Shown piece after piece: positions 10,480 through 41,641 of a stretch of 64,000 nt of DNA. Made by a program: the position numbers and the translations under genes. Position 1 is the stretch's first letter, and each line of letters begins with the position of its first letter. This DNA is from Diplolepis rosae. Taxonomy: Eukaryota; Arthropoda; Insecta; Hymenoptera; Diplolepididae. The notes under the pieces are model-generated. The model was not told the DNA's origin. It made no database searches and was given only the letters and a program-made list of their open reading frames with translations. The stretch lies in assembly GCA_030998225.1 (NCBI GenBank), contig JAPYXD010000308.1:8380001-8444000 (forward strand), read 5' to 3'.

Positions 10480-10641
10480 AAATATATAATCATATCATAA
10501 GGAATCGGACTAATTACTTCGTACAGATCAGAAGTGGGATTCAAAATCGTGCGTGCCGCGCAAAAAAAAAAAATTTCACTAGGTAGAACTTAAAGAGTAA
10601 AGGTGCTGTGAAAGTACAAGCAGCAGTGAAAATAAAGTGTT

Positions 10642-11577
10642 GTGATAATGTCACCACACATATCTTCTCAAAGAAGCAGAAAAGACAGACGTTCGCGAAG
10701 TCGACATCGACATCGTTCACGTAGTCATCGTCGAGAGTACCGAGAGAAAAAGGACCGATCAAGGCATGAGTCGGAACGGACCCATCACGATCAGGTAGAC
10801 GGAAGTCAGCAAAGGATTCGTAGCCCATCAAGTCCTGCATACAGCAGTTCTACGAGTCGTGAGTCTGATTTTGCCAAATTGACAGCAGTCTTGTCAGGTA
10901 TTGTGTCCACAGGTTCTAAGCGATCTACTTATGTTAACGAGAAAATATTACCAGATTTTTATCCCGCATTAATCAGACAATTTCCAGGGGAAGAAAGCTT
11001 CGGGAAATTGATGGAAGACGCGTTTATTTTTAAAAGCACACCGGGTCAAGATCTTCAGACATACTGCTTTGCGAAATTGGGGAAAATTGATAAATTAAAA
11101 CTAGAACTTCCAGAGGAAAAATTAGTTGATTTGATTGCGCTGGGTATTCACGACGAATCAATTCGGACAATTTTTTTAGCAGCTCGGTGTAAGACCGTTG
11201 CAGATTTAAATAAATGTTTAAGCGTTTTCCCCAATTTAGTAAAAATAAAAGAAACAAGAGATCCTAAAGTAGCAAAAGATTTTAAACGTCCATTTTCTAA
11301 TAACCCTGGATCAGATAAATCTAAAAATTTTCTAAACGATGGTTGCTTCAAATGCGGTAAAAAGGGTCACGTAAAGAAATTCTGTCCCGAATCTTTAGAG
11401 GGCGATATTTTAAAGGTTCAGACTGATGGGATTTCGAAAAATAAAGGTGAATTTTCTAAATCCGATCAGAAAAAAGAATCTATCAAAAAGAAATGTACGT
11501 TTTGCAATTACAAAGGTCATACGGAAGATCAATGCTACAAGAAAAAGAATAAGAAAAGGAAAGACAGATCAGAATGA
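10642..11577 (+). CDS. gag: Gag of gypsy-2, RS-rich N-terminus, two zinc knuckles
   Basis: A 311-codon ORF for the capsid/nucleocapsid polyprotein that packages the element RNA. Residues 7-50 are an arginine/serine/histidine-rich tract (RSRSRHRHRSRSHRR) resembling an RS domain, which is unusual at the start of Gag. The middle has the helical character expected of capsid. Two CCHC knuckles of the C-x2-C-x4-H-x4-C type follow: CFKCGKKGHVKKFC at about residue 235 and CTFCNYKGHTEDQC at about residue 285. The tail is K-rich. The ATG at 10642 is the first in frame, about 160 bases after the 5' LTR. The ORF stops at TGA (11575), but the same frame stays open into the protease. Confidence 0.88.
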   Translation: MIMSPHISSQRSRKDRRSRSRHRHRSRSHRREYREKKDRSRHESERTHHDQVDGSQQRIRSPSSPAYSSSTSRESDFAKLTAVLSGIVSTGSKRSTYVNEKILPDFYPALIRQFPGEESFGKLMEDAFIFKSTPGQDLQTYCFAKLGKIDKLKLELPEEKLVDLIALGIHDESIRTIFLAARCKTVADLNKCLSVFPNLVKIKETRDPKVAKDFKRPFSNNPGSDKSKNFLNDGCFKCGKKGHVKKFCPESLEGDILKVQTDGISKNKGEFSKSDQKKESIKKKCTFCNYKGHTEDQCYKKKNKKRKDRSE

Positions 11578-12138
11578 CTAACCGCCGGTCCCGCCGCTGA
11601 AGCAGAGCCTTTATCGGTCTTAGAAGTAGAGGCGATGAAAATAAACAAATCACTAAAAATGTGCCGCATAAACGATAAAGAAATACTATGTTCAGTAGAT
11701 TTAGGCAGTGACTGTTCTATTATTAAAGAAAGCGAGGCTCGATTATTAAATTTAAAGTTTAAAGAAACTAACGAAGTATTGTCGGGATTTGATTATTCCT
11801 TAGTCGTTCCAATTGCATATTCAAAAATTAATTTAATTATTGATGATGTTGAGCTGAAAATAAAGATATTTATCGTGCCAGACGATCAGTTGTCAAAAAG
11901 AGTTTTAATAGGTCGTAATATAATAAAAACGGGAATTCAAGCAATCACTGACGCATCATGTACGAGATTTATCAAGGCACATGATACAGACTCTTCAAGT
12001 AAAGCGATTGACCTTCTTACGGTAGAAAATGTAGAAACGTTGAAACCTATTCAAGAAAAAGACGTACATTGCGAGGACTTAGGTGAGAGAATAAAGAAAA
12101 GATTGATAGGTCTATTAAACCGTTTTCGACATAATTAG
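11578..12138 (+). CDS. pro: retropepsin-like protease of gypsy-2
   Basis: Read in the same frame as gag, directly after its TGA; an internal ATG lies at 11635. The active-site loop reads SVDLGSDCSII (Asp at 11698), i.e. D-L-G where most retropepsins have D-T/S-G. The second conserved block is VLIGRNII near residue 92 of the ATG-initiated form. The aspartic protease would cleave Gag-Pol. The frame closes with TAG at 12136, just where it should pass into RT, so a one-base shift separates protease from RT. Expression would need readthrough of the TGA or internal initiation. Confidence 0.75.
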   Translation, partial: LTAGPAAEAEPLSVLEVEAMKINKSLKMCRINDKEILCSVDLGSDCSIIKESEARLLNLKFKETNEVLSGFDYSLVVPIAYSKINLIIDDVELKIKIFIVPDDQLSKRVLIGRNIIKTGIQAITDASCTRFIKAHDTDSSSKAIDLLTVENVETLKPIQEKDVHCEDLGERIKKRLIGLLNRFRHN

Positions 12139-14717
12139 CCTTCAAACTTGAAGAACTAGGGCATTCAAAAATAGGAGAAATGAAAATTGAATTACTTAGC
12201 GATGAACCGGTGTATCATAGGCCGTATCGTATGTCGAAGGACGAGCGAGAAAAACTAAATGAATTAATCATGAAATTTCAATCCAGCGGAATAATTCGCG
12301 AGAGTACTTCACCATATGCAAGCCCAGCCTTTTTAGTTACAAAGAAAAATGGAGAAGGACGCATGGTTGTCGATTTCCGTCAATTAAATAAAATCACAAA
12401 ACTTATTAAATATCCTCTCCCGCTAATTGATGATCAGATTGATAGATTAGGGGGTCAAATGTACTTCATTTCCTTGGACTTGAAATCTGGTTTTTACCAA
12501 ATTCCAGTGCATCCTGACTCGATAGAGAAAACTGCCTTTATTACCCCAGATGGTCATTGGGAATTTTTAAGAATGGCAATGGGATTAGCTAATTCACCTG
12601 CTATTTTTCAAAGAGCTATGAATAAAGTATTGAAGGGTACTAGGGCAACAATTTACATAGATGACGTATTATTAGCTGTCAGAGATATTGAAGAAGGGTT
12701 TAAAGAATTGAAATTGGTTTTGCAAGCCTTTGAAAAATACAATCTGACATTAAATTTAGGGAAATGTGAATTTTTCCGAACAAAAATCGATTATCTAGGT
12801 AGAGAGATTTCCATTGAAGGGGTTCGACCAGGCATGCCTAAAACTCAAGCAATTATGGAGACTCCCGATCCCAAAACAGTTAAACAAGTACGTCAATTCT
12901 TAGGACTCGCTGGTTACTTTCGAAAATTTATTCAAAACTTCGCGCGAAAGGTAGCACCGTTAACAAATCTACTGCGGAAAAATGTACCCTGGCAATGGAC
13001 TGCTGAGCAATCTAATGCAGTGAGAGAAATAAAAGAGATACTGTCAACTCGACCACTTTTAGCCATATTTGACCCGGAATTACAGACGGAGGTTCATACG
13101 GATGCCAGCTGTATCGGGTTAGGAGCAATATTAATTCAGAAGCGCGAAAAAGAAAAAAGGGTTGTGGCATACTACAGTCGCAAAACTAGTCCCGAAGAGC
13201 AAAGATACCACTCATATGATTTAGAAACCTTGGCAGTGTTCGTTGCCTTCAAAGTATTTCGCGTATACTTATTAGGAATTAAATTCACAGTTGTCACAGA
13301 TTGCAGTGCTATTCGCGCGACTGCCAATAAAAAGGATATTCAACCACGGGTGGCTCGTTGGTGGGTTTATTTTCAAGATTATAACTTTGACATTGTACAT
13401 CGTCAGGGTGCTCAAGTAGCTCACGTTGATTATCTCAGTAGGAATCCCGTTGAATGTTTATCCGTTGACATAACGTCGGCAGAGTGGATAAAGGTTGCGC
13501 ATATTCAAGATCACGATATCAAAGTGATACAAAAAATTTTGGAATCCGGCGATAGAAGGTCAGAAGTAAAGCAGTATTTCGAGAAGTATGACTTAAAAGC
13601 GGGTGTAGTTTTCCGGAGAACGGAGGATGTAAAAAAATGGTTGGTACCTCGTATGTCCCGTTTGAACATTGTTAAGATGTGCCATGATGATCAGGGACAC
13701 TTTACCTTAGAAAAGACTCTCGAAAAGATCCGTGAAAATTATTGGTTTAAGGGAATGAGACGGTTTGTTTCTAAGTATGTGAAGGCTTGATTAAATTGCC
13801 TTTACTATAAATCAACATCGGGAAAAAAACCAGGCTTCCTTCACCCAATTGAAAAAGTTTCTATTCCCTTTCATACATTGCACCTAGATCATGTTGGCCC
13901 ATTCATTCGTACAAGAAACAGGAACACACAAATATTAACGATTATTGACGGATTCACTAAGTTTTGCATCCTCCAGCCTGTGCACAGTACAAAGACCAAA
14001 GGCGTCATTAAGGCACTAGACCAGCTATTCGTCCTGTTTGGAGTTCCCACATGAATAGTAACTGACAAGGGATCTGCATTTACTTCTCACACTTTCCAAG
14101 CATTCTGTCAGGAGTACGGAATTAAGCGCTTTCAAAATGCTGTCGCTACACCAAGAGCCAACGGTCAGTGTGAAAGATTAAATCGCACGGTACTAAATTC
14201 ATTGGCGGCAACCTGCGCTGGAGAATCAGAGGATTCTTGGGACAAGCATGTGAAGAAAGTTCAAAGTGCAATCAATTGTGCCATCAATAGAACCACCAGA
14301 AGGAGTCCAGCACATCTTCTTTTGGGGTATAAACCAAGGGGGACAGCGGATGCAGTACTGACTGCAGAAGTTCAAGGGACCCTTGACCGGCTAGATCTTC
14401 AGGAACTGAGGAGAGAAGCCAAACAGCGTACAGACCTGGAGCAAGCAGGGCAGAAAAGGAGGTTTGATGCACGCAGATTCAAACCACCGCATTACAACGT
14501 GGGGGACGTTGTAATGGTTGCATCCAGTCCGGTAGCGACCGGAGAGAGCAGAAAGTTGGCGGCCAAAGCAAAGGGACCGTTCAAGGTGACTGCAGTATTA
14601 CCCAATGATCGCTACGAGGTCCAAGATTTGAGGGACTTAAAGAAGTCGCCCAATCGACGGAGCGTAGTGGCAGAAGACAGTCTACAGAAATGGGTCACGT
14701 TTGACGCTATGGAGTAA
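12135..14717 (+). pseudogene. pol: RT-RNase H-integrase of gypsy-2 with two stops
   Basis: One frame runs from 12135 to 14717 with TGAs at 13788 and 14052. RT: FLVTKKNGEGRMVVDFRQLN, ISLDLKSGFYQIPV and the catalytic YIDD (12654-12665). RNase H: VHTDASCIGLGAIL and later VTDCSAI. Integrase: the zinc-finger histidine half (CHDDQGHFTLEKTLEKIR) is followed by the first TGA, which falls where the first zinc-binding Cys is expected. The catalytic core has LHLDHVGPF, then the second TGA just before IVTDKGSAF, then NGQCERLNR. The C-terminus has a GPF module (AKGPFKV). Both TGAs are single-codon changes; the rest looks well preserved. They inactivate integrase unless read through. Confidence 0.9.
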
Positions 14718-16500: not shown

Positions 16501-16932
16501 TAAAAACAATTTTGCTGTACCAGGCCTCGATCGAGGATCGACTGACTCTCGGTTGACGATTTTCTATATCGGCTCGATTTCCTCCTCCTCGAGTTTCGAG
16601 TTGAGGCATCCGATTGGCCGGACGTGTCAACGTCGTCATAGCAACGACCAATGCTCGTTGCTCGAAACCCGAGGCGGGGAGTCTTTACTGGTTAAATCCA
16701 GCTTGAGGAAATTCTCTGAATTCCATTTAAAATATTTGTCTTCAAATAAAATCAATAAAGTACAATATAACTGTTAAATTAATTAAGTAAAATATATGTA
16801 TAAAAGTAAAATATGATAAAATATAATATGATTAATATTATAGATAATATAATATTAATGCATTTTTCAAAGGAATCCCCAAGCTAAAACAGATTTTTAT
16901 TTTAGTTTCAAAATAAAAATATTATAATTTAA
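16501..16932. other. AT-rich spacer before the satellite array
   Basis: The first 200 bases are moderately GC-rich with ATCGAGGATCGACTGACTC-like words, then strongly AT-rich. It ends with ATTATAATTTAA (16921-16932), which reappears immediately after the array. Confidence 0.5.
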
Positions 16933-17084
16933 ATTTCAAATTGACATGTTTGGTAACATGTCTATTATTTTATTGACCCAAATTCATATAATGTTTGTTC
17001 ATTTCTTTGGCATAGGGTCAGTTTCTTCTTATTTTCATTGATTAAAATTATTATTACATATAAAAATGCGCAAAAAGAAAGAAA

Positions 17085-17125
17085 GGCAAACGTTTCGGCC
17101 ACATATGGGGGCCCTCTTCAGTGCC
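17085..17125 (-). ncRNA. hammerhead motif, unit 1
   Basis: GGCA-CUGAAGA-(G, bulged G, GCC)-loop CCCAUAUGU-GGCC-GAAA-CGU-U-UGCC. All core positions are intact and stem I is GGCA/UGCC. Confidence 0.8.
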
Positions 17126-18152
17126 ATAAATTCAAAGATTGAATCAAAATTTCTGTAAAGAATTACAATATAGAAGATAATTAAGAAAGAATTATCATAA
17201 AAATTAAAAACTTATCACATAGCTTGCAATTCAAAATGAAGTAGTCCAGTATGCAGCATCACGAATTGAAAAATTACTTGAAGTTCACTATGAATAAAAA
17301 ACCGGATATAATGAAAAAATATAAAAGATTTTGCACACGAACCGACCGGAATTTTTTTCTTCAAAAAATGTTTAGTATTAATTAATGATGCCAAATTGGT
17401 TCACAATGGCAAAACGCGAACAAGTTTTACATTCATGAAAACTTCTTGTGAAGACTTTAATACCGGCGACTCTCACAGAATGATCTGAACTGTTTTAAAA
17501 ACCGACTCGGGACATGTGGCTTTGCTGACCGAAAATTTTTTTTTTCCTATAAGCAATCCTGAGAGGTTCTTTTCCTCCTTGAAGAAGACGATTGTCCTGT
17601 ACTTATTTGAGAAATTCTAGACGTTTATGATGATTTTCACGAGTGGACGAAGGCGTTTATTTTTCAAGAAAACGATTTTGTATATAGGCTTCGCGGACAA
17701 TCCATTTTACACTGAATTTGCAAGCAAGGCGTTACATAAAGATAAAATATTATAATATCCATATATGTAATTTTACTCCATATTTAAAAAAATTGAAAGT
17801 TGTTTATTTTCACATTCAGATTTATTCTGAGATGTTTTGGAAAAATGATAATAAATTTATCTTTAAAAATTAATAAAAATGCAACTTGAATATTAGTGAT
17901 ATTAATTATCACATTTGAAGTTATTATTAAATTCAACTAGTTCTGAAAATGGTCAGAACTGTTAGATATTCTAACTTTATAGTGAAAGTGCCATTTTTAA
18001 ATTTCAAATTGACATGTTTGGTAACATGTCTATTATTTTATTGACCCAAATTCATATAATGTTTGTTCATTTCTTTGACATAGGGTCAGTTTCTTCTTAT
18101 TTTCATTGATTAAAATTATTATTACATATAAAAATGCGCAAAAAGAAAGAAA

Positions 18153-18193
18153 GGCAAACGTTTCGGCCACATATGGGGGCGCTCTTCAGTGCC
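18153..18193 (-). ncRNA. hammerhead motif, unit 2
   Basis: Intact core; the bulged stem II base is C in this copy. Confidence 0.8.
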
Positions 18194-19220
18194 ATAAATT
18201 CAAAGATTGGATCAAAATTTCTGTAAAGAATTACAATATAGAAGATAATTAAGAAAGAATTATCATAAAAATTAAAAACTTATCACATAGCTTGCAATTC
18301 AAAATGAAGTAGTCCAGTATGCAGCATCACGAATTGAAAAATTACTTGAAGTTCACTATGAATAAAAAACCGGATATAATGAAAAAATATAAAAGATTTT
18401 GCACACGAACCGACCGGAATTTTTTTCTTCAAAAAATGTTTAGTATTAATTAATGATGCCAAATTGGTTCACAATGGCAAAACGCGAACAAGTTTTACAT
18501 TCATGAAAACTTCTTGTGAAGACTTTAATACCGGCGACTCTCACAGAATGATCTGAACTGTTTTAAAAACCGACTCGGGACATGTGGCTTTGCTGACCGA
18601 AAATTTTTTTTTTCCTATAAGCAATCCTGAGAGGTTCTTTTCCTCCTTGAAGAAGACTATTGTCCTGTACTTAGTTGAGAAATTCGAGACGTTTATGATG
18701 ATTTTCACGAGTGGACGAAGGCGTTTATTTTTCAAGAAAACGATTTTGTATATAGGCTTCGCGGACAATCCATTTTACACTGAATTTGCAAGCAAGGCGT
18801 TACATAAAGATAAAATATTATAATATCCATATATGTAATTTTACTCCATATTTAAAAAAATGGAAAGTTGTTTATTTTCACATTCAGATTTATTCTGAGA
18901 TGTTTTGGAAAAATGATAATAAATTTATCTTTAAAAATTAATAAAAATGCAACTTGAATATTAGTGATATTAATTATCACATTTGAAGTTATTATTAAAT
19001 TCAACTAGTTCTGAAAATGGTCAGAACTGTTAGATATTCTAACTTTATAGTGAAAGTGCCATTTTTAAATTTCAAATTGACATGTTTGGTAACATGTCTA
19101 TTATTTTATTGACCCAAATTCATATAATGTTTGTTCATTTCTTTGACATAGGGTCAGTTTCTTCTTATTTTCATTGATTAAAATTATTATTACATATAAA
19201 AATGCGCAAAAAGAAAGAAA

Positions 19221-19261
19221 GGCAAACGTTTCGGCCACATATGGGGGCGCTCTTCAGTGCC
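19221..19261 (-). ncRNA. hammerhead motif, unit 3
   Basis: Intact core; bulged stem II base C. Confidence 0.8.
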
Positions 19262-20285
19262 ATAAATTCAAAGATTGGATCAAAATTTCTGTAAAGAATT
19301 ACAATATAGAAGATAATTAAGAAAGAATTATCATAAAAATTAAAAACTTATCACATAGCTTGCAATTCAAAATGAAGTAGTCCAGTATGCAGCATCACGA
19401 ATTGAAAAATTACTTGAAGTTCACTATGAATAAAAAACCGGATATAATGAAAAAATATAAAAGATTTTGCACACGAACCGACCGGAATTTTTTTAAAAAA
19501 ATGTTTATTATTAATTAATGATGCCAAATTGGTTCACAATGGCAAAACGCGAACAAGTTTTACATTCATGAAAACTTCTTGTGAAGACTTTAATACCGGC
19601 GACTCTCACAGAATGATCTGAACTGTTTTAAAAACCGACTCGGGACATGTGGCTTTGCTGACCGAAAATTTTTTTTTTCCTATAAGCAATCCTGAGAGGT
19701 TCTTTTCCTCCTTGAAGAAGACTATTGTCCTGTACTTAGTTGAGAAATTCGAGACGTTTATGATGATTTTCACGAGTGGACGAAGGCGTTTATTTTTCAA
19801 GAAAACGATTTTGTATATAGGCTTCGCGGACAATCCATTTTACACTGAATTTGCAAGCAAGGCGTTACATAAAGATAAAATATTATAATATCCATATATG
19901 TAATTTTACTCCATATTTAAAAAAATTGAAAGTTGTTTATTTTCACATTCAGATTTATTCTGAGATGTTTTGGAAAAATGATAATAAATTTATCTTTAAA
20001 AATTAATAAAAATGCAAAGTGAATATTAGTGATATTAATTATCACATTTGAAGTTATTATTAAATTCAACTAGTTCTGAAAATGGTCAGAACTGTTAGAT
20101 ATTCTAACTTTATAGTGAAAGTGCCATTTTTAAATTTCAAATTGACATGTTTGGTAACATGTCTATTATTTTATTGACCCAAATTCATATAATGTTTGTT
20201 CATTTCTTTGGCATAGGGTCAGTTTCTTCTTATTTTCATTGATTAAAATTATTATTACATATAAAAATGCGCAAAAAGAAAGAAA

Positions 20286-20326
20286 GGCAAACGTTTCGGC
20301 CACATATGGGGGCGCTCTTCAGTGCC
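20286..20326 (-). ncRNA. hammerhead motif, unit 4
   Basis: Intact core; bulged stem II base C. Confidence 0.8.
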
Positions 20327-21350
20327 ATAAATTCAAAGATTGGATCAAAATTTCTGTAAAGAATTACAATATAGAAGATAATTAAGAAAGAATTATCATA
20401 AAAATTAAAAACTTATCACATAGCTTGCAATTCAAAATGAAGTAGTCCAGTATGCAGCATCACGAATTGAAAAATTACTTGAAGTTCACTATGAATAAAA
20501 AACCGGATATAATGAAAAAATATAAAAGATTTTGCACACGAACCGACCGGAATTTTTTTTTCAAAAAATGTTTATTATTAATTAATGATGCCAAATTGGT
20601 TCACAATGGCAAAACGCGAACAAGTTTTACATTCATGAAAACTTCTTGTGAAGACTTTAATACCGGCGACTCTCACAGAATGATCTGAACTGTTTTAAAA
20701 ACCGACTCGGGACATGTGGCTTTGCTGACCGAAAATTTTTTTTCCTATAAGCAATCCTGAGAGGTTCTTTTCCTCCTTGAAGAAGACTATTGTCCTGTAC
20801 TTAGTTGAGAAATTCGAGACGTTTATGATGATTTTCACGAGTGGACGAAGGCGTTTATTTTTCAAGAAAACGATTTTGTATATAGGCTTCGCGGACAATC
20901 CATTTTACACTGAATTTGCAAGCAAGGCGTTACATAAAGATAAAATATTATAATATCCATATATGTAATTTTACTCCATATTTAAAAAAATTGAAAGTTG
21001 TTTATTTTCACATTCAGATTTATTCTGAGATGTTTTGGAAAAATGATAATAAATTTATCTTTAAAAATTAATAAAAATGCAACTTGAATATTAGTGATAT
21101 TAATTATCACATTTGAAGTTATTATTAAATTCAACTAGTTCTGAAAATGGTCAGAACTGTTAGATATTCTAACTTTATAGTGAAAGTGCCATTTTTAAAT
21201 TTCAAATTGACATGTTTGGTAACATGTCTATTATTTTATTGACCCAAATTCATATAATGTTTGTTCATTTCTTTGGCATAGGGTCAGTTTCTTCTTATTT
21301 TCATTGATTAAAATTATTATTACATATAAAAATGCGCAAAAAGAAAGAAA

Positions 21351-21391
21351 GGCAAACGTTTCGGCCACATATGGGGGCCCTCTTCAGTGCC
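21351..21391 (-). ncRNA. hammerhead motif, partial unit 5
   Basis: Intact core with bulged base G; the surrounding unit is truncated at the inversion junction about 190 bases away. Confidence 0.8.
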
Positions 21392-21571
21392 ATAAATTCA
21401 AAGATTGGATCAAAATTTCTGTAAAGAATTACAATATAGAAGATAATTAAGAAAGAATTATCATAAAAATTAAAAACTTATCACATAGCTTGCAATTCAA
21501 AATGAAGTAGTCCAGTATGCAGCATCACGAATTGAAAAATTACTTGAAGTTCACTATGAATAAAAAACCGG

Positions 21572-21584
21572 ATATAAAGTTAGA
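21572..21584. other. inversion junction with 5-bp microhomology
   Basis: The left block reads CCGGATATAATG in intact units and the right block CACTATAAAGTTAG. The junction CCGGATATAAAGTTAG joins them through the shared TATAA. Confidence 0.75.
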
Positions 21585-22425
21585 ATATCTAACAGTTCTG
21601 ACCATTTTCAGAACTAGTTGAATTTAATAATAACTTCAAATGTGATAATTAATATCACTAATATTCAAGTTGCATTTTTATTAATTTTTAAAGATAAATT
21701 TATTATCATTTTTCCAAAACATCTCAGAATAAATCTGAATGTGAAAATAAACAACTTTCAATTTTTTTAAATATGGAGTAAAATTACATATATGGATATT
21801 ATAATATTTTATCTTTATGTAACGCCTTGCTTGCAAATTCAGTGTAAAATGGATTGTCCGCGAAGCCTATATACAAAATCGTTTTCTTGAAAAATAAACG
21901 CCTTCGTCCACTCGTGAAAATCATCATAAACGTCTCGAATTTCTCAACTAAGTACAGGACAATAGTCTTCTTCAAGGAGGAAAAGAACCTCTCAGGATTG
22001 CTTATAGGAAAAAAAAAATTTTCGGTCAGCAAAGCCACATGTCCCGAGTCGGTTTTTAAAACAGTTCAGATCATTCTGTGAGAGTCGCCGGTATTAAAGT
22101 CTTCACAAGAAGTTTTCATGAATGTAAAACTTGTTCGCGTTTTGCCATTGTGAACCAATTTGGCATCATTAATTAATAATAAACATTTTTTGAAAAAAAT
22201 TCCGGTCGGTTCGTGTGCAAAATCTTTTATATTTTTTCATTATATCCGGTTTTTTATTCATAGTGAACTTCAAGTAATTTTTCAATTCGTGATGCTGCAT
22301 ACTGGACTACTTCATTTTGAATTGCAAGCTATGTGATAAGTTTTTAATTTTTATGATAATTCTTTCTTAATTATCTTCTATATTGTAATTCTTTACAGAA
22401 ATTTTGATCCAATCTTTGAATTTAT

Positions 22426-22466
22426 GGCACTGAAGAGCGCCCCCATATGTGGCCGAAACGTTTGCC
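22426..22466 (+). ncRNA. hammerhead motif, right block unit 1
   Basis: Intact core; bulged base C; first copy in the opposite orientation. Confidence 0.8.
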
Positions 22467-23490
22467 TTTCTTTCTTTTTGCGCATTTTTATATGTAATAA
22501 TAATTTTAATCAATGAAAATAAGAAGAAACTGACCCTATGTCAAAGAAATGAACAAACATTATATGAATTTGGGTCAATAAAATAATAGACATGTTACCA
22601 TGTCAATTTGAAATTTAAAAATGGCACTTTCACTATAAAGTTAGAATATCTAACAGTTCTGACCATTTTCAGAACTAGTTGAATTTAATAATAACTTCAA
22701 ATGTGATAATTAATATCACTAATATTCAAGTTGCATTTTTATTAATTTTTAAAGATAAATTTATTATCATTTTTCCAAAACATCTCAGAATAAATCTGAA
22801 TGTGAAAATAAACAACTTTCAATTTTTTTAAATATGGAGTAAAATTACATATATGGATATTATAATATTTTATCTTTATGTAACGCCTTGCTTGCAAATT
22901 CAGTGTAAAATGGATTGTCCGCGAAGCCTATATACAAAATCGTTTTCTTGAAAAATAAACGCCTTCGTCCACTCGTGAAAATCATCATAAACGTCTCGAA
23001 TTTCTCAACTAAGTACAGGACAATAGTCTTCTTCAAGGAGGAAAAGAACCTCTCAGGATTGCTTATAGGAAAAAAAAAATTTTCGGTCAGCAAAGCCACA
23101 TGTCCCGAGTCGGTTTTTAAAACAGTTCAGATCATTCTGTGAGAGTCGCCGGTATTAAAGTCTTCACAAGAAGTTTTCATGAATGTAAAACTTGTTCGCG
23201 TTTTGCCATTGTGAACCAATTTGGCATCATTAATTAATAATAAACATTTTTTGAAAAAAAAAAATTCCGGTCGGTTCGTGTGCAAAATCTTTTATATTTT
23301 TTCATTATATCCGGTTTTTTATTCATAGTGAACTTCAAGTAATTTTTCAATTCGTGATGCTGCATACTGGACTACTTCATTTTGAATTGCAAGCTATGTG
23401 ATAAGTTTTTAATTTTGATGATAATTCTTTCTTAATTATCTTCTATATTGTAATTCTTTACAGAAATTTTGATCCAATCTTTGAATTTAT

Positions 23491-23531
23491 GGCACTGAAG
23501 AGCGCCCCCATATGTGGCCGAAACGTTTGCC
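23491..23531 (+). ncRNA. hammerhead motif, right block unit 2
   Basis: Intact core; bulged base C. Confidence 0.8.
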
Positions 23532-24564
23532 TTTCTTTCTTTTTGCGCATTTTTATATGTAATAATAATTTTAATCAATGAAAATAAGAAGAAACTGACC
23601 CTATGTCAAAGAAATGAACAAACATTATATGAATTTGGGTCAATAAAATAATAGACATGTTACCAAACATGTCAATTTGAAATTTAAAAATGGCACTTTC
23701 ACTATAAAGTTAGAATATCTAACAGTTCTGACCATTTTCAGAACTAGTTGAATTTAATAATAACTTCAAATGTGATAATTAATATCACTAATATTCAAGT
23801 TGCATTTTTATTAATTTTTAAAGATAAATTTATTATCATTTTTCCAAAACATCTCAGAATAAATCTGAATGTGAAAATAAACAACTTTCAATTTTTTTAA
23901 ATATGGAGTAAAATTACATATATGGATATTATAATATTTTATCTTTATGTAACGCCTTGCTTGCAAATTCAGTGTAAAATGGATTGTCCGCGAAGCCTAT
24001 ATACAAAATCGTTTTCTTGAAAAATAAACGCCTTCGTCCACTCGTGAAAATCATCATAAACGTCTAGAATTTCTCAAATAAGTACAGGACAATCGTCTTC
24101 TTCAAGGAGGAAAAGAACCTCTCAGGATTGCTTATAGGAAAAAAAAAATTTTCGGTCAGCAAAGCCACATGTCCCGAGTCGGTTTTTAAAACAGTTCAGA
24201 TCATTCTGTGAGAGTCGCCGGTATTAAAGTCTTCACAAGAAGTTTTCATGAATGTAAAACTTGTTCGCGTTTTGCCATTGTGAACCAATTTGGCATCATT
24301 AATTAATAATAAACATTTTTTGAAAAAAAAAAAAAAAATTCCGGTCGGTTCGTGTGCAAAATCTTTTATATTTTTTCATTATATCCGGTTTTTTATTCAT
24401 AGTGAACTTCAAGTAATTTTTCAATTCGTGATGCTGCATACTGGACTACTTCATTTTGAATTGCAAGCTATGTGATAAGTTTTTAATTTTTATGATAATT
24501 CTTTCTTAATTATCTTCTATATTGTAATTCTTTACAGAAATTTTGATCCAATCTTTGAATTTAT

Positions 24565-24605
24565 GGCACTGAACAGCGCCCCCATATGTGGCCGAAACGT
24601 TTGCC
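24565..24605 (+). ncRNA. hammerhead motif with core mutation, right block unit 3
   Basis: The core reads CUGAACA, so the invariant G of CUGANGA is replaced by C. Stems are unchanged. Loss of activity is expected from established hammerhead biochemistry. Confidence 0.75.
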
Positions 24606-25632
24606 TTTCTTTCTTTTTGCGCATTTTTATATGTAATAATAATTTTAATCAATGAAAATAAGAAGAAACTGACCCTATGCCAAAGAAATGAACAAACATT
24701 ATATGAATTTGGGTCAATAAAATAATAGACATGTTACCAAACATGTCAATTTGAAATTTAAAAATGGCACTTTCACTATAAAGTTAGAATATCTAACAGT
24801 TCTGACCATTTTCAGAACTAGTTGAATTTAATAATAACTTCAAATGTGATAATTAATATCACTAATATTCAAGTTGCATTTTTATTAATTTTTAAAGATA
24901 AATTTATTATCATTTTTCCAAAACATCTCAGAATAAATCTGAATGTGAAAATAAACAACTTTCAATTTTTTTAAATATGGAGTAAAATTACATATATGGA
25001 TATTATAATATTTTATCTTTATGTAACGCCTTGCTTGCAAATTCAGTGTAAAATGGATTGCCCGCGAAGCCTATATACAAAATCGTTTTCTTGAAAAATA
25101 AACGCCTTCGTCCACTCGTGAAAATCATCATAAACGTCTCGAATTTCTCAACTAAGTACAGGACAATAGTCTTCTTCAAGGAGGAAAAGAACCTCTCAGG
25201 ATTGCTTATAGGAAAAAAATTTTCGGTCAGCAAAGCCACATGTCCCGAGTCGGTTTTTAAAACAGTTCAGATCATTCTGTGAGAGTCGCCGGTATTAAAG
25301 TCTTCACAAGAAGTTTTCATGAATGTAAATCTTGTTCGCGTTTTGCCATTGTGAACCAATTTGGCATCATTAATTAATAATAAACATTTTTTGAAAAAAA
25401 AAAAAATTCCGGTCGGTTCGTGTGCAAAATCTTTTATATTTTTTCATTATATCCGGTTTTTTATTCATAGTGAACTTGAAGTAATTTTTCAATTCGTGAT
25501 GCTGCATACTGGACTACTTCATTTTGAATTGCAAGCTATGAGATAAGTTTATGAATTCTATGATAATTCTTTCTTAATTATCTTCTATATTGTAATTCTT
25601 TACAGAAATTTTGATCCAATCTTTGAATTTAT

Positions 25633-25673
25633 GGCACTGAAGAGCGCCCCCATATGCGGCCGAAACGTTTGCC
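25633..25673 (+). ncRNA. hammerhead motif, right block unit 4
   Basis: Intact core; bulged base C; loop II ends CAUAUGC instead of CAUAUGU. Confidence 0.8.
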
Positions 25674-26700
25674 TTTCTTTCTTTTTGCGCATTTTTATTT
25701 GTAATAATAATTTTAATCAATGAAAATAAGAAGAAACTGACCCTATGACAAAGAAATGAACAAACATTATATGAATTTGGGTCAATAAAATAATAGACAT
25801 GTTACCAAACATGTCAATTTGAAATTTAAAAATGGCACTTTAACTATAAAGTTAGAATATCTAACAGTTCTGACCATTTTCAGAACTAGTTGAATTTAAT
25901 AATAACTTCAAATGTGATAATTAATATCACTAATATTCAAGTTGCATTTTTATTAATTTTTAAAGATAAATTTATTATCATTTTTCCAAAACATCTCAGA
26001 ATAAATCTGAATGTGAAAATAAACAACTTTCAATTTTTTTAAATATGGAGTAAAATTACATATATGGATATTATAATATTTTATCTTTATGTAACGCCTT
26101 GCTTGCAAATTCAGTGTAAAATGGATTGTCCGCGAAGCCTATATACAAAATCGTTTTCTTGAAAAATAAACGCCTTCGTCCACTCGTGAAAATCATCATA
26201 AACGTCTCGAATTTCTCAACTAAGTACAGGACAATAGTCTTCTTCAAGGAGGAAAAGAACCTCTCAGGATTGCTTATAGGAAAAAAATTTTCGGTCAGCA
26301 AAGCCACATGTCCCGAGTCGGTTTTTAAAACAGTTCAGATCATTCTGTGAGAGTCGCCGGTATTAAAGTCTTCACAAGAAGTTTTCATGAATGTAAACCT
26401 TGTTCGCGTTTTGCCATTGTGAACCAATTTGGCATCATTAATTAATAATAAACATTTTTTGAAAAAAAAAAAAATTCCGGTCGGTTCGTGTGCAAAATCT
26501 TTTATATTTTTTCATTATATCCGGTTTTTTATTCATAGTGAACTTGAAGTAATTTTTCAATTCGTGATGCTGCATACTGGACTACTTCATTTTGAATTGC
26601 AAGCTATGTGATAAGTTTTTAATTTTTATGATAATTCTTTCTTAATTATCTTCTATATTGTAATTCTTTACAGAAATTTTGATCTAATCTTTGAATTTAT

Positions 26701-26741
26701 GGCACTGAAGAGGGCCCCCATATGTGGCCGAAACGTTTGCC
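26701..26741 (+). ncRNA. hammerhead motif, right block unit 5
   Basis: Intact core; bulged base G. Confidence 0.8.
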
Positions 26742-27768
26742 TTTCTTTCTTTTTGCGCATTTTTATTTGTAATAATAATTTTAATCAATGAAAATAAGAA
26801 GAAACTGACCCTATGCCAAAGAAATGAACAAACATTATATGAATTTGGGTCAATAAAATAATAGACATGTTACCAAACATGTCAATTTGAAATTTAAAAA
26901 TGGCACTTTAACTATAAAGTTAGAATATCTAACAGTTCTGACCATTTTCAGAACTAGTTGAATTTAATAATAACTTCAAATGTGATAATTAATATCACTA
27001 ATATTCAAGTTGCATTTTTATTAATTTTTAAAGATAAATTTATTATCATTTTTCAAAAACATCTCAGAATAAATCTGAATGTGAAAATAAACAACTTTCA
27101 ATTTTTTTAAATATGGAGTAAAATTACATATATGGATATTATAATATTTTATCTTTATGTAACGCCTTGCTTGCAAATTCAGTGTAAAATGGATTGTCCG
27201 CGAAGCCTATATACAAAATCGTTTTCTTGAAAAATAAACGCCTTCGTCCACTCGTGAAAATCATCATAAACGTCTCGAATTTCTCAACTAAGTACAGGAC
27301 AATAGTCTTCTTCAAGGAGGAAAAGAACCTCTCAGGATTGCTTATAGGAAAAAAATTTTCGGTCAGCAAAGCCACATGTCCCGAGTCGGTTTTTAAAACA
27401 GTTCAGATCATTCTGTGAGAGTCGCCGGTATTAAAGTCTTCACAAGAAGTTTTCATGAATGTAAATCTTGTTCGCGTTTTGCCATTGTGAACCAATTTGG
27501 CATCATTAATTAATAATAAACATTTTTTGAAAAAAAAAAAAATTCCGGTCGGTTCGTGTGCAAAATCTTTTATATTTTTTCATTATATCCGGTTTTTTAT
27601 TCATAGTGAACTTGAAGTAATTTTTCAATTCGTGATGCTGCATACTGGACTACTTCATTTTGAATTGCAAGCTATGTGATAAGTTTTTAATTTTTATGAT
27701 AATTCTTTCTTAATTATCTTCTATATTGTAATTCTTTACAGAAATTTTGATCTAATCTTTGAATTTAT

Positions 27769-27809
27769 GGCACTGAAGAGCGCCCCCATATGCGGCCGAA
27801 ACGTTTGCC
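27769..27809 (+). ncRNA. hammerhead motif, right block unit 6
   Basis: Intact core; bulged base C and the CAUAUGC loop, the same combination as unit 4 of this block. Confidence 0.8.
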
Positions 27810-28836
27810 TTTCTTTCTTTTTGCGCATTTTTATTTGTAATAATAATTTTAATCAATGAAAATAAGAAGAAACTGACCCTATGCCAAAGAAATGAACAAA
27901 CATTATATGAATTTGGGTCAATAAAATAATAGACATGTTACCAAACATGTCAATTTGAAATTTAAAAATGGCACTTTAACTATAAAGTTAGAATATCTAA
28001 CAGTTCTGACCATTTTCAGAACTAGTTGAATTTAATAATAACTTCAAATGTGATAATTAATATCACTAATATTCAAGTTGCATTTTTATTAATTTTTAAA
28101 GATAAATTTATTATCATTTTTCAAAAACATCTCAGAATAAATCTGAATGTGAAAATAAACAACTTTCAATTTTTTTAAATATGGAGTAAAATTACATATA
28201 TGGATATTATAATATTTTATCTTTATGTAACGCCTTGCTTGCAAATTCAGTGTAAAATGGATTGTCCGCGAAGCCTATATACAAAATCGTTTTCTTGAAA
28301 AATAAACGCCTTCGTCCACTCGTGAAAATCATCATAAACGTCTCGAATTTCTCAACTAAGTACAGGACAATAGTCTTCTTCAAGGAGGAAAAGAACCTCT
28401 CAGGATTGCTTATAGGAAAAAAATTTTCGGTCAGCAAAGCCACATGTCCCGAGTCGGTTTTTAAAACAGTTCAGATCATTCTGTGAGAGTCGCCGGTATT
28501 AAAGTCTTCACAAGAAGTTTTCATGAATGTAAATCTTGTTCGCGTTTTGCCATTGTGAACCAATTTGGCATCATTAATTAATAATAAACATTTTTTGAAA
28601 AAAAAAAAAATTCCGGTCGGTTCGTGTGCAAAATCTTTTATATTTTTTCATTATATCCGGTTTTTTATTCATAGTGAACTTGAAGTAATTTTTCAATTCG
28701 TGATGCTGCATACTGGACTACTTCATTTTGAATTGCAAGCTATGTGATAAGTTTTTAATTTTTATGATAATTCTTTCTTAATTATCTTCTATATTGTAAT
28801 TCTTTACAGAAATTTTGATCTAATCTTTGAATTTAT

Positions 28837-28877
28837 GGCACTGAAGAGGGCCCCCATATGTGGCCGAAACGTTTGCC
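28837..28877 (+). ncRNA. hammerhead motif, right block unit 7
   Basis: Intact core; bulged base G. Confidence 0.8.
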
Positions 28878-29905
28878 TTTTTTTCTTTTTGCGCATTTTT
28901 ATTTGTAATAATAATTTTAATCAATGAAAATAAGAAGAAACTGACCCTATGCCAAAGAAATGAACAAACATTATATGAATTTGGGTCAATAAAATAATAG
29001 ACATGTTACCAAACATGTCAATTTGAAATTTAAAAATGGCACTTTAACTATAAAGTTAGAATATCTAACAGTTCTGACCATTTTCAGAACTAGTTGAATT
29101 TAATAATAACTTCAAATGTGATAATTAATATCACTAATATTCAAGTTGCATTTTTATTAATTTTTAAAGATAAATTTATTATCATTTTTCAAAAACATCT
29201 CAGAATAAATCTGAATGTGAAAATAAACAACTTTCAATTTTTTTAAATATGGAGTAAAATTACATATATGGATATTATAATATTTTATCTTTATGTAACG
29301 CCTTGCTTGCAAATTCAGTGTAAAATGGATTGTCCGCGAAGCCTATATACAAAATCGTTTTCTTGAAAAATAAACGCCTTCGTCCACTCGTGAAAATCAT
29401 CATAAACGTCTCGAATTTCTCAACTAAGTACAGGACAATAGTCTTCTTCAAGGAGGAAAAGAACCTCTCAGGATTGCTTATAGGAAAAAAATTTTCGGTC
29501 AGCAAAGCCACATGTCCCGAGTCGGTTTTTAAAACAGTTCAGATCATTCTGTGAGAGTCGCCGGTATTAAAGTCTTCACAAGAAGTTTTCATGAATGTAA
29601 AACTTGTTCGCGTTTTGCCATTGTGAACCAATTTGGCATCATTAATTAATAATAAACATTTTTTGAAAAAAAAAAAAAATTCCGGTCGGTTCGTGTGCAA
29701 AATCTTTTATATTTTTTCATTATATCCGGTTTTTTATTCATAGTGAACTTGAAGTAATTTTTCAATTCGTGATGCTGCATACTGGACTACTTCATTTTGA
29801 ATTGCAAGCTATGTGATAAGTTTTTAATTTTTATGATAATTCTTTCTTAATTATCTTCTATATTGTAATTCTTTACAGAAATTTTGATCTAATCTTTGAA
29901 TTTAT

Positions 29906-29946
29906 GGCACTGAAGAGGGCCCCCATATGTGGCCGAAACGTTTGCC
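29906..29946 (+). ncRNA. hammerhead motif, right block unit 8
   Basis: Intact core; bulged base G. Confidence 0.8.
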
Positions 29947-30972
29947 TTTCTTTCTTTTTGCGCATTTTTATATGTAATAATAATTTTAATCAATGAAAAT
30001 AAGAAGAAACTGACCCTATGCCAAAGAAATGAACAAACATTATATGAATTTGGGTCAATAAAATAATAGACATGTTACCAAACATGTCAATTTGAAATTT
30101 AAAAATGGCACTTTAACTATAAAGTTAGAATATCTAACAGTTCTGACCATTTTCAGAACTAGTTGAATTTAATAATAACTTCAAATGTGATAATTAATAT
30201 CACTAATATTCAAGTTGCATTTTTATTAATTTTTAAAGATAAATTTATTATCATTTTTCCAAAACATCTCAGAATAGATCTGAATGTGAAAATAAACAAC
30301 TTTCAATTTTTTTAAATATGGAGTAAAATTACATATATGGATATTATAATATTTTATCTTTATGTAACGCCTTGCTTGCAAATTCAGTGTAAAATGGATT
30401 GTCCGCGAAGCCTATATACAAAATCGTTTTCTTGAAAAATAAACGCCTTCGTCCACTCGTGAAAATCATCATAAACGTCTCGAATTTCTCAACTAAGTAC
30501 AGGACAATAGTCTTCTTCAAGGAGGAAAAGAACCTCTCAGGATTGCTTATAGGAAAAAAATTTTCGGTCAGCAAAGCCACATGTCCCGAGTCGGTTTTTA
30601 AAACAGTTCAGATCATTCTGTGAGAGTCGCCGGTATTAAAGTCTTCACAAGAAGTTTTCATGAATGTAAATCTTGTTCGCGTTTTGCCATTGTGAACCAA
30701 TTTGGCATCATTAATTAATAATAAACATTTTTTGAAAAAAAAAAAATTCCGGTCGGTTCGTGTGCAAAATCTTTTATATTTTTTCATTATATCCGGTTTT
30801 TTATTCATAGTGAACTTGAAGTAATTTTTCAATTCGTGATGCTGCATACTGGACTACTTCATTTTGAATTGCAAGCTATGTGATAAGTTTTTAATTTTTA
30901 TGATAATTCTTTCTTAATTATCTTCTATATTGTAATTCTTTACAGAAATTTTGATCTAATCTTTGAATTTAT

Positions 30973-31013
30973 GGCACTGAAGAGGGCCCCCATATGTGGC
31001 CGAAACGTTTGCC
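30973..31013 (+). ncRNA. hammerhead motif, right block unit 9
   Basis: Intact core; bulged base G. Confidence 0.8.
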
Positions 31014-32037
31014 TTTCTTTCTTTTTGCGCATTTTTATATGTAATAATAATTTTAATCAATGAAAATAAGAAGAAACTGACCCTATGCCAAAGAAATGAA
31101 CAAACATTATATGAATTTGGGTCAATAAAATAATAGACATGTTACCAAACATGTCAATTTGAAATTTAAAAATGGCACTTTAACTATAAAGTTAGAATAT
31201 CTAACAGTTCTGACCATTTTCAGAACTAGTTGAATTTAATAATAACTTCAAATGTGATAATTAATATCACTAATATTCAAGTTGCATTTTTATTAATTTT
31301 TAAAGATAAATTTATTATCATTTTTCCAAAACATCTCAGAATAAATCTGAATGTGAAAATAAACAACTTTCAATTTTTTTAAATATGGAGTAAAATTACA
31401 TATATGGATATTATAATATTTTATCTTTATGTAACGCCTTGCTTGCAAATTCAGTGTAAAATGGATTGTCCGTGAAGCCTATATACAAAATCGTTTTCTT
31501 GAAAAATAAACGCCTTCGTCCACTCGTGAAAATCATCATAAACGTCTCGAATTTCTCAACTAAGTACAGGACAATAGTCTTCTTCAAGGAGGAAAAGAAC
31601 CTCTCAGGATTGCTTATAGGAAAAAAATTTTCGGTCAGCAAAGCCACATGTCCCGAGTCGGTTTTTAAAACAGTTCAGATCATTCTGTGAGAGTCGCCGG
31701 TATTAAAGTCTTCACAAGAAGTTTTCATGAATGTAAAACTTGTTCGCGTTTTGCCATTGTGAACCAATTTGGCATCATTAATTAATAATAAACATTTTTT
31801 GAAAAAAAAAATTCCGGTCGGTTCGTGTGCAAAATCTTTTATATTTTTTCATTATATCCGGTTTTTTATTCATAGTGAACTTCAAGTAATTTTTCAATTC
31901 GTGATGCTGCATACTGGACTACTTCATTTTGAATTGCAAGCTATGTGATAAGTTTTTAATTTTTATGATAATTCTTTCTTAATTATCTTCTATATTGTAA
32001 TTCTTTACAGAAATTTTGATCCAATCTTTGAATTTAT

Positions 32038-32078
32038 GGCACTGAAGAGGGCCCCCATATGTGGCCGAAACGTTTGCC
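32038..32078 (+). ncRNA. hammerhead motif, last unit
   Basis: Intact core; bulged base G. The unit ends 95 bases later at the array edge. Confidence 0.8.
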
Positions 32079-32185
32079 TTTCTTTCTTTTTGCGCATTTT
32101 TATATGTAATAATAATTTTAATCAATGAAAATAAGAAGAAACTGACCCTATGCCAAAGAAATGAACAAACATTATTATAATTTAA

Positions 32186-40251: not shown

Positions 40252-40892
40252 TCATTTCTGTTTCATCAATTTTTTAAATAAGGAATCATATAACGGATTC
40301 AAACTCTCAGTGTCCTGTCTTTTATTTATATTGGAAGGGTTAGTTTTTATGTGGATCATTTCGAAAATTACCCTTTTTTTCCAATTAGTTTCAATATCCA
40401 GGATTTTCACATCATTCCACCTAAAATCATGGTTTTTCTCCAACCGATGCTCAGAGACTACACTGATTTGTTGAGAACGATGTGAAATGTTATTAAAATG
40501 TTCCCTGATTCTCGAAGAAATCTTGCGTTTAGTTTGACCCACATAAACAGCTGGACAATTGTCACATTCAATTTTATGGTGCATTTATACCTCTGTCTGT
40601 CTGACCGGTGCGGACAGAAAATACATAAGAGTAAAGGAGACAGACAGTGTAAAATTGGAAAAAGAAAATGTCTGTCTTTTTTGCTCTTATGTATTTTTTG
40701 TCAGCAACGGCCAGGCAGACAGAGGTATAAATGTACCATTATAGACCAAGTTTATTCTATCATCTATTGGAAGATTATCTTTCCCTTTAATAATCAGTTT
40801 AGAATTCTTTTGATTTTTAACAGAATAAACTACATTGATGTTATGTTCAGAACAAATTTTATTCAGTCTTTCTGATAAGCCTTCAATATAAG
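40252..40892 (-). pseudogene. Penelope-like linker and GIY-YIG endonuclease
   Basis: Upstream on the minus strand (40892-40739) is linker sequence of the IEGLSERLNKICSEHNINVV type, ending at VYNGTF where a foldback element intervenes. After it (40584-40252) comes the endonuclease: CDNCPAVYVGQTKRKISSRI is the YIG half with the catalytic Arg region. It is followed by REHFNNI, a conserved SEHRLEKNHDFRWNDVKIL block and a terminal NPLYDSLFKKL ending at TAA/TGA near 40252. GIY-YIG domains nick the target during insertion. The GIY half is destroyed by the foldback insertion. Confidence 0.85.
40577..40738. repeat. 162-bp foldback inside the Penelope endonuclease
   Basis: Starts TGGTGCATTTATACCTCTGT and ends ACAGAGGTATAAATGTACCA. 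Arms of about 65-70 bp with few mismatches (ACATAAGAGTAAAGGAGACA versus its complement) flank a 20-bp centre. Confidence 0.8.
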
Positions 40893-40905
40893 GTACACAA
40901 AGAAT

Positions 40906-41164
40906 TTCAAATTAATCAGGTGAGTTTGAAATTTTTGTCACTGCCTACATTATCGGAGGTTCACTAGTCGCGTATCAGATAGGATACGTTGTCGACAGGT
41001 GTCCTTGTAGACAATTTCAAAATCTTATATCGCAAATAATGCAATTGAATTCAAATATTTAAAGAATTTGAAAATCTTTCTGTGGAAAAAAAGACGCTTT
41101 CGACTGCGCTGGGATTCGAGCCCAGGTCTTTCGATTGCCGGTCGACTGCTCTAACCACTGGTCG
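40906..41164 (-). repeat. SINE copy a (left palindrome arm)
   Basis: tRNA-like head at the inner end, about 180-bp body, and tail TTCAAATTAATCAGG at the outer end, starting exactly at the target duplication. Confidence 0.85.
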
Positions 41165-41434
41165 GACGCCTGTGTAGCTCAGTGGTTAGAGCAGTCGACC
41201 GGCAATCGAAAGACCTGGGCTCGAATCCCAGCGCAGTCGAAAGCGTCCTTTTTTCCACAGAAAGATTTTCAAATTCTTTAAATATTTGAATTCAATTGCA
41301 TTATTTGCGATATAAGATTTTGAAATTGTCTACGAGGACACCTGTCGATAACGTATCCTATCTGATACGCGACTAGTGAACCTCCGATAATGTAGGCAGT
41401 GACAAAAATTTCAAACTCACCTGATTAATTTGAA
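41165..41434 (+). repeat. SINE copy b (right palindrome arm)
   Basis: A box TAGCTCAGTGG (41175-41185) and B box GGCTCGAATCC (41218-41228). D-arm GCTC/GAGC and T-arm CTGGG/CCCAG are perfect and a 7-bp acceptor is nearly complete. The anticodon stem is weak and the base expected to be U33 is C, so this is a tRNA-derived SINE head and not a functional tRNA. The Pol III promoter elements look intact. Confidence 0.85.
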
Positions 41435-41628
41435 ATCAATTTACAGCCGCAAGGCAGAGCCACTTGGCGATATAAGGAGATCTTCCTGTGGAGAATTAGA
41501 TGTCGGACCCCTGTGTAGCTCAGTGGTTAGAGCAGTCGACCGGCAATCGAAAGACCTGGGCTCGAATCCCAGCGCAGTCGAAAGCGTCTTTTTTTCCACA
41601 GAAAGATTTTCAAATTCTTTAAATATTT
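41435..41628 (+). repeat. SINE copy c with distinct leader
   Basis: A 75-base leader (AAGGCAGAGCCACTTGGCG, then GAGATCTTCCTGTGGAG) precedes the same tRNA-like head (A box at about 41516). The body is truncated at CAAATTCTTTAAATATTT. The leader-head-tail arrangement is repeated at 60.3 kb. Confidence 0.85.
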
Positions 41629-41641
41629 GTACACAAAGAAT

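Follow-up and report, generated by a model that had tools for sequence, protein, structure and literature searches.

What is the origin of a 15-kb block of tandem repeats in which every unit carries the motif of a hammerhead ribozyme, and which machinery put it in place? We analysed a 64,000-bp stretch of the Diplolepis rosae genome (contig JAPYXD010000308.1, positions 8,380,001 to 8,444,000, forward strand; hereafter the window, whose own numbering is used below), in which a first-pass annotation had described such a block as a satellite. Judged by its sequence, the block is a single insertion of a dispersed element with a target-site duplication (TSD), and "satellite" is a name for its appearance, not for its origin. 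The element is very probably a non-autonomous retroelement of the Penelope-like element (PLE) type, a retrozyme-like unit with a minimal PLE hammerhead that would be mobilised by PLE machinery. The features that point to this reading are a unit without recognisable coding content, its dispersal, 3' ends fixed at two sites within or next to predicted stem-loops, 5' ends that vary, and, in four of nine insertions, two head-to-head arms bounded by an AT-rich TSD.

The 15 copies of a 41-bp motif that had been counted in the block are all present, at a spacing of 1065-1075 bp, yet they do not run one way. Five are on the minus strand (17085-17125, 18153-18193, 19221-19261, 20286-20326, and 21351-21391) and ten on the plus strand (22426-22466, 23491-23531, 24565-24605, 25633-25673, 26701-26741, 27769-27809, 28837-28877, 29906-29946, 30973-31013, and 32038-32078), with the two groups head to head at ~21573 in diverging arms. 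The whole insertion measures 15,240 bp (16933-32172) and is composed of tandem ~1068-bp non-coding units, which differ from one another by 0-1.4% among the units compared. Its left arm (16933-21572, minus strand) holds four full and two partial units, with the 5' end at unit nucleotide (nt) ~930 and the 3' end at a site that we call B (unit nt up to 239); its right arm (21573-32172, plus strand) holds nine full and two partial units and runs from unit nt ~254 to a 3' end at site A (~179). Read by eye, the arms meet in a 5-bp microhomology, TATAA (21573-21577). A 13-bp direct repeat, TATTATAATTTAA, abuts both borders (16920-16932 and 32173-32185, plus strand) and has no third occurrence in the window. 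As a control, 40-bp stretches of similar AT-richness were drawn from the window in random pairs, overlapping or near pairs being skipped; 13 bases were shared in 29 of 3000 draws, with no requirement that the repeats abut a border. An assembly artefact is argued against because four loci have the same geometry and border repeats.

A genome-wide search for the unit (758 Mb, 428 contigs), proposed in the first-pass annotation, recovered at least eight further insertions, a lower bound since the best 5 of 2750 and 40 of 2024 candidates were scored. Three are head to head (C154:587608-593305, C347:1685910-1688119, and C424:4566236-4567697) and five have a single orientation (C195:4745892ff, C395:17141961ff, C154:605284-606734, C182:5166426-5217108, and C182:5247598-5251310), the first of the two C182 insertions spanning 50.7 kb with 47 full units of ~1062 bp. 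Unit length is about 1062-1075 bp. Among the units compared, those of the window differ by 1.7-4.1% from those of loci L010-L013, and locus L009 is closest to window unit R5; the 50 full units of the two C182 insertions comprise 31 distinct sequences, one of them present in 13 copies. An AT-rich repeat lies beside the 3' end of the 50.7-kb array (L049:2700-3440), and related sequence flanks the second C182 insertion (both by eye); a preferred target is possible. The longest stop-to-stop frame that overlaps the unit is 87 amino acids (aa), and a Pfam search of four unit frames gave no match above cut-off. The unit thus lacks the open reading frame (ORF) with telomerase-like reverse transcriptase (RT) and GIY-YIG endonuclease of an autonomous PLE. 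The unit also contains an internal poly(A) run of variable length (unit nt 871-883, e.g., window 27530-27542) and, at unit nt 856, an AATAAA, as though some of its sequence had once been a retroposed cDNA.

The nine insertions have 13 arms, whose two kinds of ends behave differently. Their 5' ends are scattered from unit nt 15 to 996, whereas seven 3' ends fall at site A (unit nt ~176-181) and five at site B (~232-239), so 12 of 13 coincide with two adjacent internal start sites of the kind that gives PLE insertions their "tail". The exact nucleotide of a 3' end is blurred because unit and target match by chance. All of these ends are internal and without poly(A). Sites A and B are ~57 nt apart; measured from the predicted hammerhead cut (after unit nt 78; after 26737 in the motif at 26701-26741), they lie ~100 and ~160 nt further downstream. 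The one remaining 3' end, in the large C182 array, is at unit nt 77, 1 nt from that cut. All four inverted insertions combine one A end with one B end, a pairing expected by chance in 1 of 16 cases if A and B are equally likely, and all four have a 12-15-bp repeat across both borders, part of which overlaps the unit. Head-to-head arms, a tail on one arm, and a TSD, the PLE-type pattern, therefore occur together in four of nine insertions.

Predicted RNA structure occurs at or next to both sites. The region of unit nt 140-246 (window 26799-26905) folds with a z score of -2.62, and 4 of 200 shuffles fold equally well. In one representative unit, a first hairpin (26806-26852, plus strand) has a UGACCC/GGGUCA stem and an AC-rich loop that holds putative RT start site A, and a second (GACAUGUU/AACAUGUC, 26864-26883, plus strand) is followed by putative start site B. 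By minimum free energy (MFE), both hairpins are kept in six of seven representatives; hairpin 1 is lost in the L012 unit.

The motif itself was compared with the hammerhead core C3 U4 G5 A6 N7 G8 A9, G12 A13 A14, A15.1-U16.1, H17 (PMC3088659). The core, CUGAAGA...GAAA, is complete in 14 of the 15 window copies; the claim that CUGAAGA is in every copy stands for these and fails for the copy at 24565-24605, which reads CUGAACA. In a PLE hammerhead this change, G8C, reportedly eliminates cleavage (PMC11167929), and the copy is predicted to be inactive. The G/C alternation at the stem II bulge and the T/C in loop II are as described before. Stems I and II, both beside the core, have 4 bp each, stem II with one bulge. 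In loci L009-L013, CTGAAGA and GAAACGTT are kept in 15 of 15 motif copies (core counts leave out the copies at C154:605284-606734), and the stem exceptions are two L009 units with a deletion in stem I and one L010 unit with an A at the stem II base. On C182, all 52 expected copies are present, 51 of them complete and identical although the units differ, and one cut at the end. As read from the sequence, and in agreement with the very short stem III noted earlier, helix III is reduced to a palindromic ACGU, whereas a canonical type I hammerhead has a helix III of its own and contacts between loops 1 and 2.

The hammerhead motif is more than chance. A strict descriptor (stem I / CUGANGA / stem II / GAAA / short III / H17) matched 7 times with Watson-Crick pairs only, and 50 times when G-U pairs were allowed, in 129.75 Mb of first-order Markov sequence of window composition, which corresponds to ~6e-5 or ~4e-4 per 1068-bp unit on both strands; with the composition of the unit itself, the counts were 3 and 56 in 134 Mb. 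Within the window, a slightly looser scan found one weak match outside the array, and no hammerhead with one or fewer core mismatches lies near the window's PLE remains. In viral contigs, the motif pattern had three matches, none with the GGCA/TGCC stem I. A covariance hit had been expected from Rfam, and the Rfam hammerhead models gave none above gathering threshold for the array motif; this negative is uninformative because the local PLE hammerhead described below fails too, with 15.2 bits against a gathering threshold of 48.5. None of five folded motif stretches was better than its shuffles (z -0.31 to 0.74), and two C-bulge variants each take another MFE structure. For a fold that depends on tertiary or dimer contacts, the MFE of the motif alone does not settle the question. 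Self-cleavage of array transcripts at the predicted site is plausible. If the arrays were copied from RNA, cleavage would be incomplete or not obligatory, because arms as long as ~10.6 kb and 50.7 kb each comprise many units.

The genome also holds a candidate partner. An RT fragment of a PLE at window positions 41441-42190 (minus strand) gave 27 matches in a protein search, and a genome-wide search with it found at least 151 matches, several in open frames of ~853 aa (150 of 17342 candidates were scored, so the count is a lower bound). In one PLE, on C252, a hammerhead lies ~107 nt before the first ATG of an open 853-aa frame (L060) and recurs in the downstream pseudo-long terminal repeat (pLTR; L064). 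The two pLTRs are 93.7% identical (L060 1-950 vs L064 1000-2001), the match ending at the end of the stretch. A covariance model built from three window motifs only, and searched against 51.6 kb from nine sources, found the hammerhead in both C252 pLTRs (30.7 bits, rough E 9e-6); at E <=10 its only other matches in these sources were four C182 unit copies, with none outside the array family. The earlier comparison with Penelope-type hammerheads is right, because a model made from array copies only recovers a motif of this kind from the pLTRs of a local PLE. Stem I differs, GGCA/UGCC in the unit and AUCA/UGAU in the C252 PLE, with pairing retained, and ACGU is common to both. The best unit-PLE alignment of the region that includes the hammerhead has a score reached by 4 of 1000 shuffles.

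The window itself contains a decayed PLE (40252-42501, minus strand) with a GIY-YIG domain and RT fragments, split by a palindromic region (40904-41436, 96.6%). Two adjacent tRNA-like matches lie at 41168-41239, overlapping the palindromic region, and at 41509-41580. Some genomic PLE matches stand in frames far longer than a PLE ORF (2284-5396 aa; G000:C350:1506659 and others), which are perhaps tandem in-frame copies.

We infer that the mobilising protein is a PLE protein, and insertion could proceed as follows. PLE protein would bind multi-unit transcripts of the arrays, and its GIY-YIG nuclease would nick an AT-rich target on both strands. The 3' ends of the target would then each prime reverse transcription in the stem-loop region, from site A for one arm and from site B for the other, and the two cDNAs would extend unequal distances upstream before joining, often by microhomology. 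The hammerhead probably cuts transcripts to unit-length RNA, acting as dimers through the palindromic ACGU, with cleavage incomplete and insertion able to do without it. Much of this has been described for the PLE of an anole (PMC11167929): its protein cleaves AT-rich DNA on both strands and extends them, and reverse transcription starts internally at two adjacent RNA sites, mostly in an AC-rich stem-loop, which is the origin of a 30-40-bp tail. From the positions given there, we compute a start ~85-92 nt downstream of the hammerhead cut. In the same work, hammerhead mutants still insert, the hammerhead needs protein, no RNA ends were found at the cut, and no difference in start site was seen between strands, whereas here each of the four inverted insertions uses both sites.

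Several results weigh against this reading. None of the five single-orientation insertions has an abutting TSD, although one (C154:605284-606734) has an 8-bp shared word that does not abut on one side, and the A/B pairing is based on four insertions. Among four PLE 5' regions fetched, only that of the C252 PLE has a hammerhead, and three have none. Outside the hammerhead, 414 of 1000 shuffles reach the alignment score of unit and C252 PLE. Downstream of the hammerhead, both have a GACCC/GGGTC stem with an AC-rich loop, a pattern with two matches in the 48.7 kb of window that the array does not occupy. Given an alignment no better than shuffles and a stem pattern that recurs in the window, a start structure common to unit and PLE is only suggested.

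Both arms seem to have been copied from one source, over stretches that overlap. Window units L4 and R2 have one difference in 1065 columns, and the offset L2=R0, L3=R1, L4=R2, L5p=R3 has the lowest mean difference (0.44% vs 0.66-1.22%, poly(A) tract left out). At locus L009, a variant unit (stem I deletion plus C90G) occurs once per arm, both times as the first full unit beside the junction. Collinearity of the window arms is weakened by L3, which is closer to R0p and R2 than to R1 (R1 has a private 4-bp deletion), and by L5p, which is no closer to R3 than to R5 and closer to R8 and R9; the evidence for overlap is mainly the L4-R2 pair and the L009 arms. Heterogeneous multi-unit transcripts fit better than rolling-circle copying of one circle, because the latter would give identical units at insertion, and such templates would mean that long transcripts escaped cleavage. 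Later gene conversion or exchange may have contributed to the unit pattern. One might extend this to a two-template rule, with a dimeric PLE particle carrying two copies of the source RNA, one cDNA made from A and the other from B on the opposite strand. TSD-bearing insertions would then always be A+B, with arms that are overlapping copies of the same source array, and self-cleaved RNA would also be usable, giving arrays that end at the hammerhead cut. We consider this rule unlikely, its odds being lowered because the collinearity of the window arms rests mainly on one unit pair.

Could the arrays have arisen without PLE machinery? Foldback transposons are DNA transposons with long inverted arms of variable length, and an element whose terminal inverted repeats were tandem arrays would have the arms and TSDs seen here; the termini differ by the ~57-nt tail, which does not suit matching inverted ends, and five of nine insertions run in one orientation only and are truncated to varying extents at the 5' end, so that this origin is extremely improbable. 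An ordinary satellite that expanded through unequal crossing-over and underwent a single internal inversion, its hammerhead-like motif being a vestige or due to chance, would account for the tendency of neighbouring window units to have variants in common and for the homogeneity of the C182 units, which is as unequal exchange predicts; unequal exchange may well have enlarged that array. As an account of the family it is very improbable: nine insertions are dispersed, with scattered 5' ends, while the TSDs at all four inverted copies and the fixed 3' ends are hard to reconcile with it, and the low descriptor chance per unit and the same kind of motif in PLE pLTRs speak against a chance motif. 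Twin priming, in which target-primed reverse transcription by a long interspersed nuclear element (LINE) produces head-to-head arms and TSDs from one RNA, has the same geometry, and in the window only a short gap separates the end of the left arm (unit nt 239) from the start of the right arm (254). An origin by twin priming from a single contiguous RNA was dropped because the other three inverted loci lack this near-contiguity and the arms look overlapping. LINE mobilisation more generally is improbable, the 3' ends being internal and without poly(A), and PLE tails account for the two end sites instead.

Compatible with PLE-type mobilisation is a further reading, in which the hammerhead of these copies does not work or does not matter. 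The anole mutants that insert normally and the need of the anole hammerhead for protein (PMC11167929) fit it, as do the multi-unit arms of 10.6 and 50.7 kb and the folding of the motif, better than shuffles in none of five stretches. The 51 identical C182 motifs in differing units, the intact core in all 15 copies of L009-L013, and the array that ends 1 nt from the cut are evidence for a hammerhead that matters, and we regard inactivity as rather unlikely.

Hammerhead repeats have been known in animals since the newt satellite of 1987, and Cervera and de la Pena (2014) and Lunse et al. (2017) are reportedly the key papers on PLE hammerheads. The arm, tail, and TSD marks of the unit are those published for PLEs. 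It has in common with them a minimal type I hammerhead without helix III and two adjacent start sites that produce a tail (PMC7761336, PMC11167929), as well as head-to-head arms, a TSD, AT-rich targets, and tandem organisation. Unlike PLEs, the unit has no RT/GIY-YIG frame, occurs in up to 47 full tandem units, and has a tail of ~57 nt instead of 30-40. In Adineta, PLE copies can have an inverted head-to-head pLTR, one of the inverted pLTRs bearing a tail at its 3' end; their TSDs measure 8-10 bp, and some copies have none (PMC3846280). Adineta pLTRs are also enough to carry foreign sequence in trans, and moved an unrelated gene in this way (PMC3846280); this mobilisation of an NRPS gene by Pen3a_Av in Adineta vaga resembles our case in that PLE termini, both direct and inverted and with a TSD, carried non-PLE sequence, and differs in concerning a single captured gene, not a dispersed tandem-repeat family with a hammerhead in each unit.

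Metazoan non-LTR retrozymes (PMC7229834) are likewise non-coding tandem repeats of low GC with a type I hammerhead, found in multimeric loci with TSDs and with PLEs in the same genome; they differ in size and type (~150-450 bp with a canonical hammerhead, against ~1062-1075 bp with a minimal PLE-type one). The retrozyme literature proposes PLEs as the movers on the basis of common hammerheads, tandem copies, and co-occurrence, and states that no motif in the repeats identifies the autonomous partner (PMC7229834, PMC7761336); the unit departs from these repeats in having marks that point to the machinery, which they lack according to PMC7761336. W-elements of Schistosoma (PMC8490949) are satellite-like and putatively mobile, some with functional hammerheads and one case with TSD-like repeats, but no PLE insertion signature is described for them in the parts of that source available. 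Short non-autonomous Penelope elements are mentioned for butterflies (PMC6685494). Among the titles and abstracts listed by searches of open-licence literature, we found no retrozyme-like tandem element with a PLE tail, head-to-head arms, and TSDs; a prior description elsewhere is possible. The element described here would supply the marks of its mover (PLE-type internal starts with a tail, head-to-head arms bounded by TSDs, and a hammerhead with a recognisable relative in a local PLE), and so helps to answer which machinery moves hammerhead repeats. It would also account for the odd "inverted satellite", and its insertions form a natural collection for reading the mechanics of PLE insertion, including the two start sites, the two strands, and the role of the hammerhead.

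The rest of the window contains other repeats and mobile elements. Remains of a gypsy-type retrotransposon (10636-14717, plus strand) comprise a gag-like frame, RT/RNase H, and integrase pieces; the nearest match to the protein is 95% identical, one from Belonocnema kinseyi is 71% identical over 56% of the query, and beetle and moth matches cover more at lower identity. A 426-aa hAT-type transposase frame (Dimer_Tnp_hAT) lies at 46802-48082 on the minus strand, and a GC-rich 129-bp tandem repeat of 3.7 copies (2449-2930) stands in the otherwise AT-rich window.

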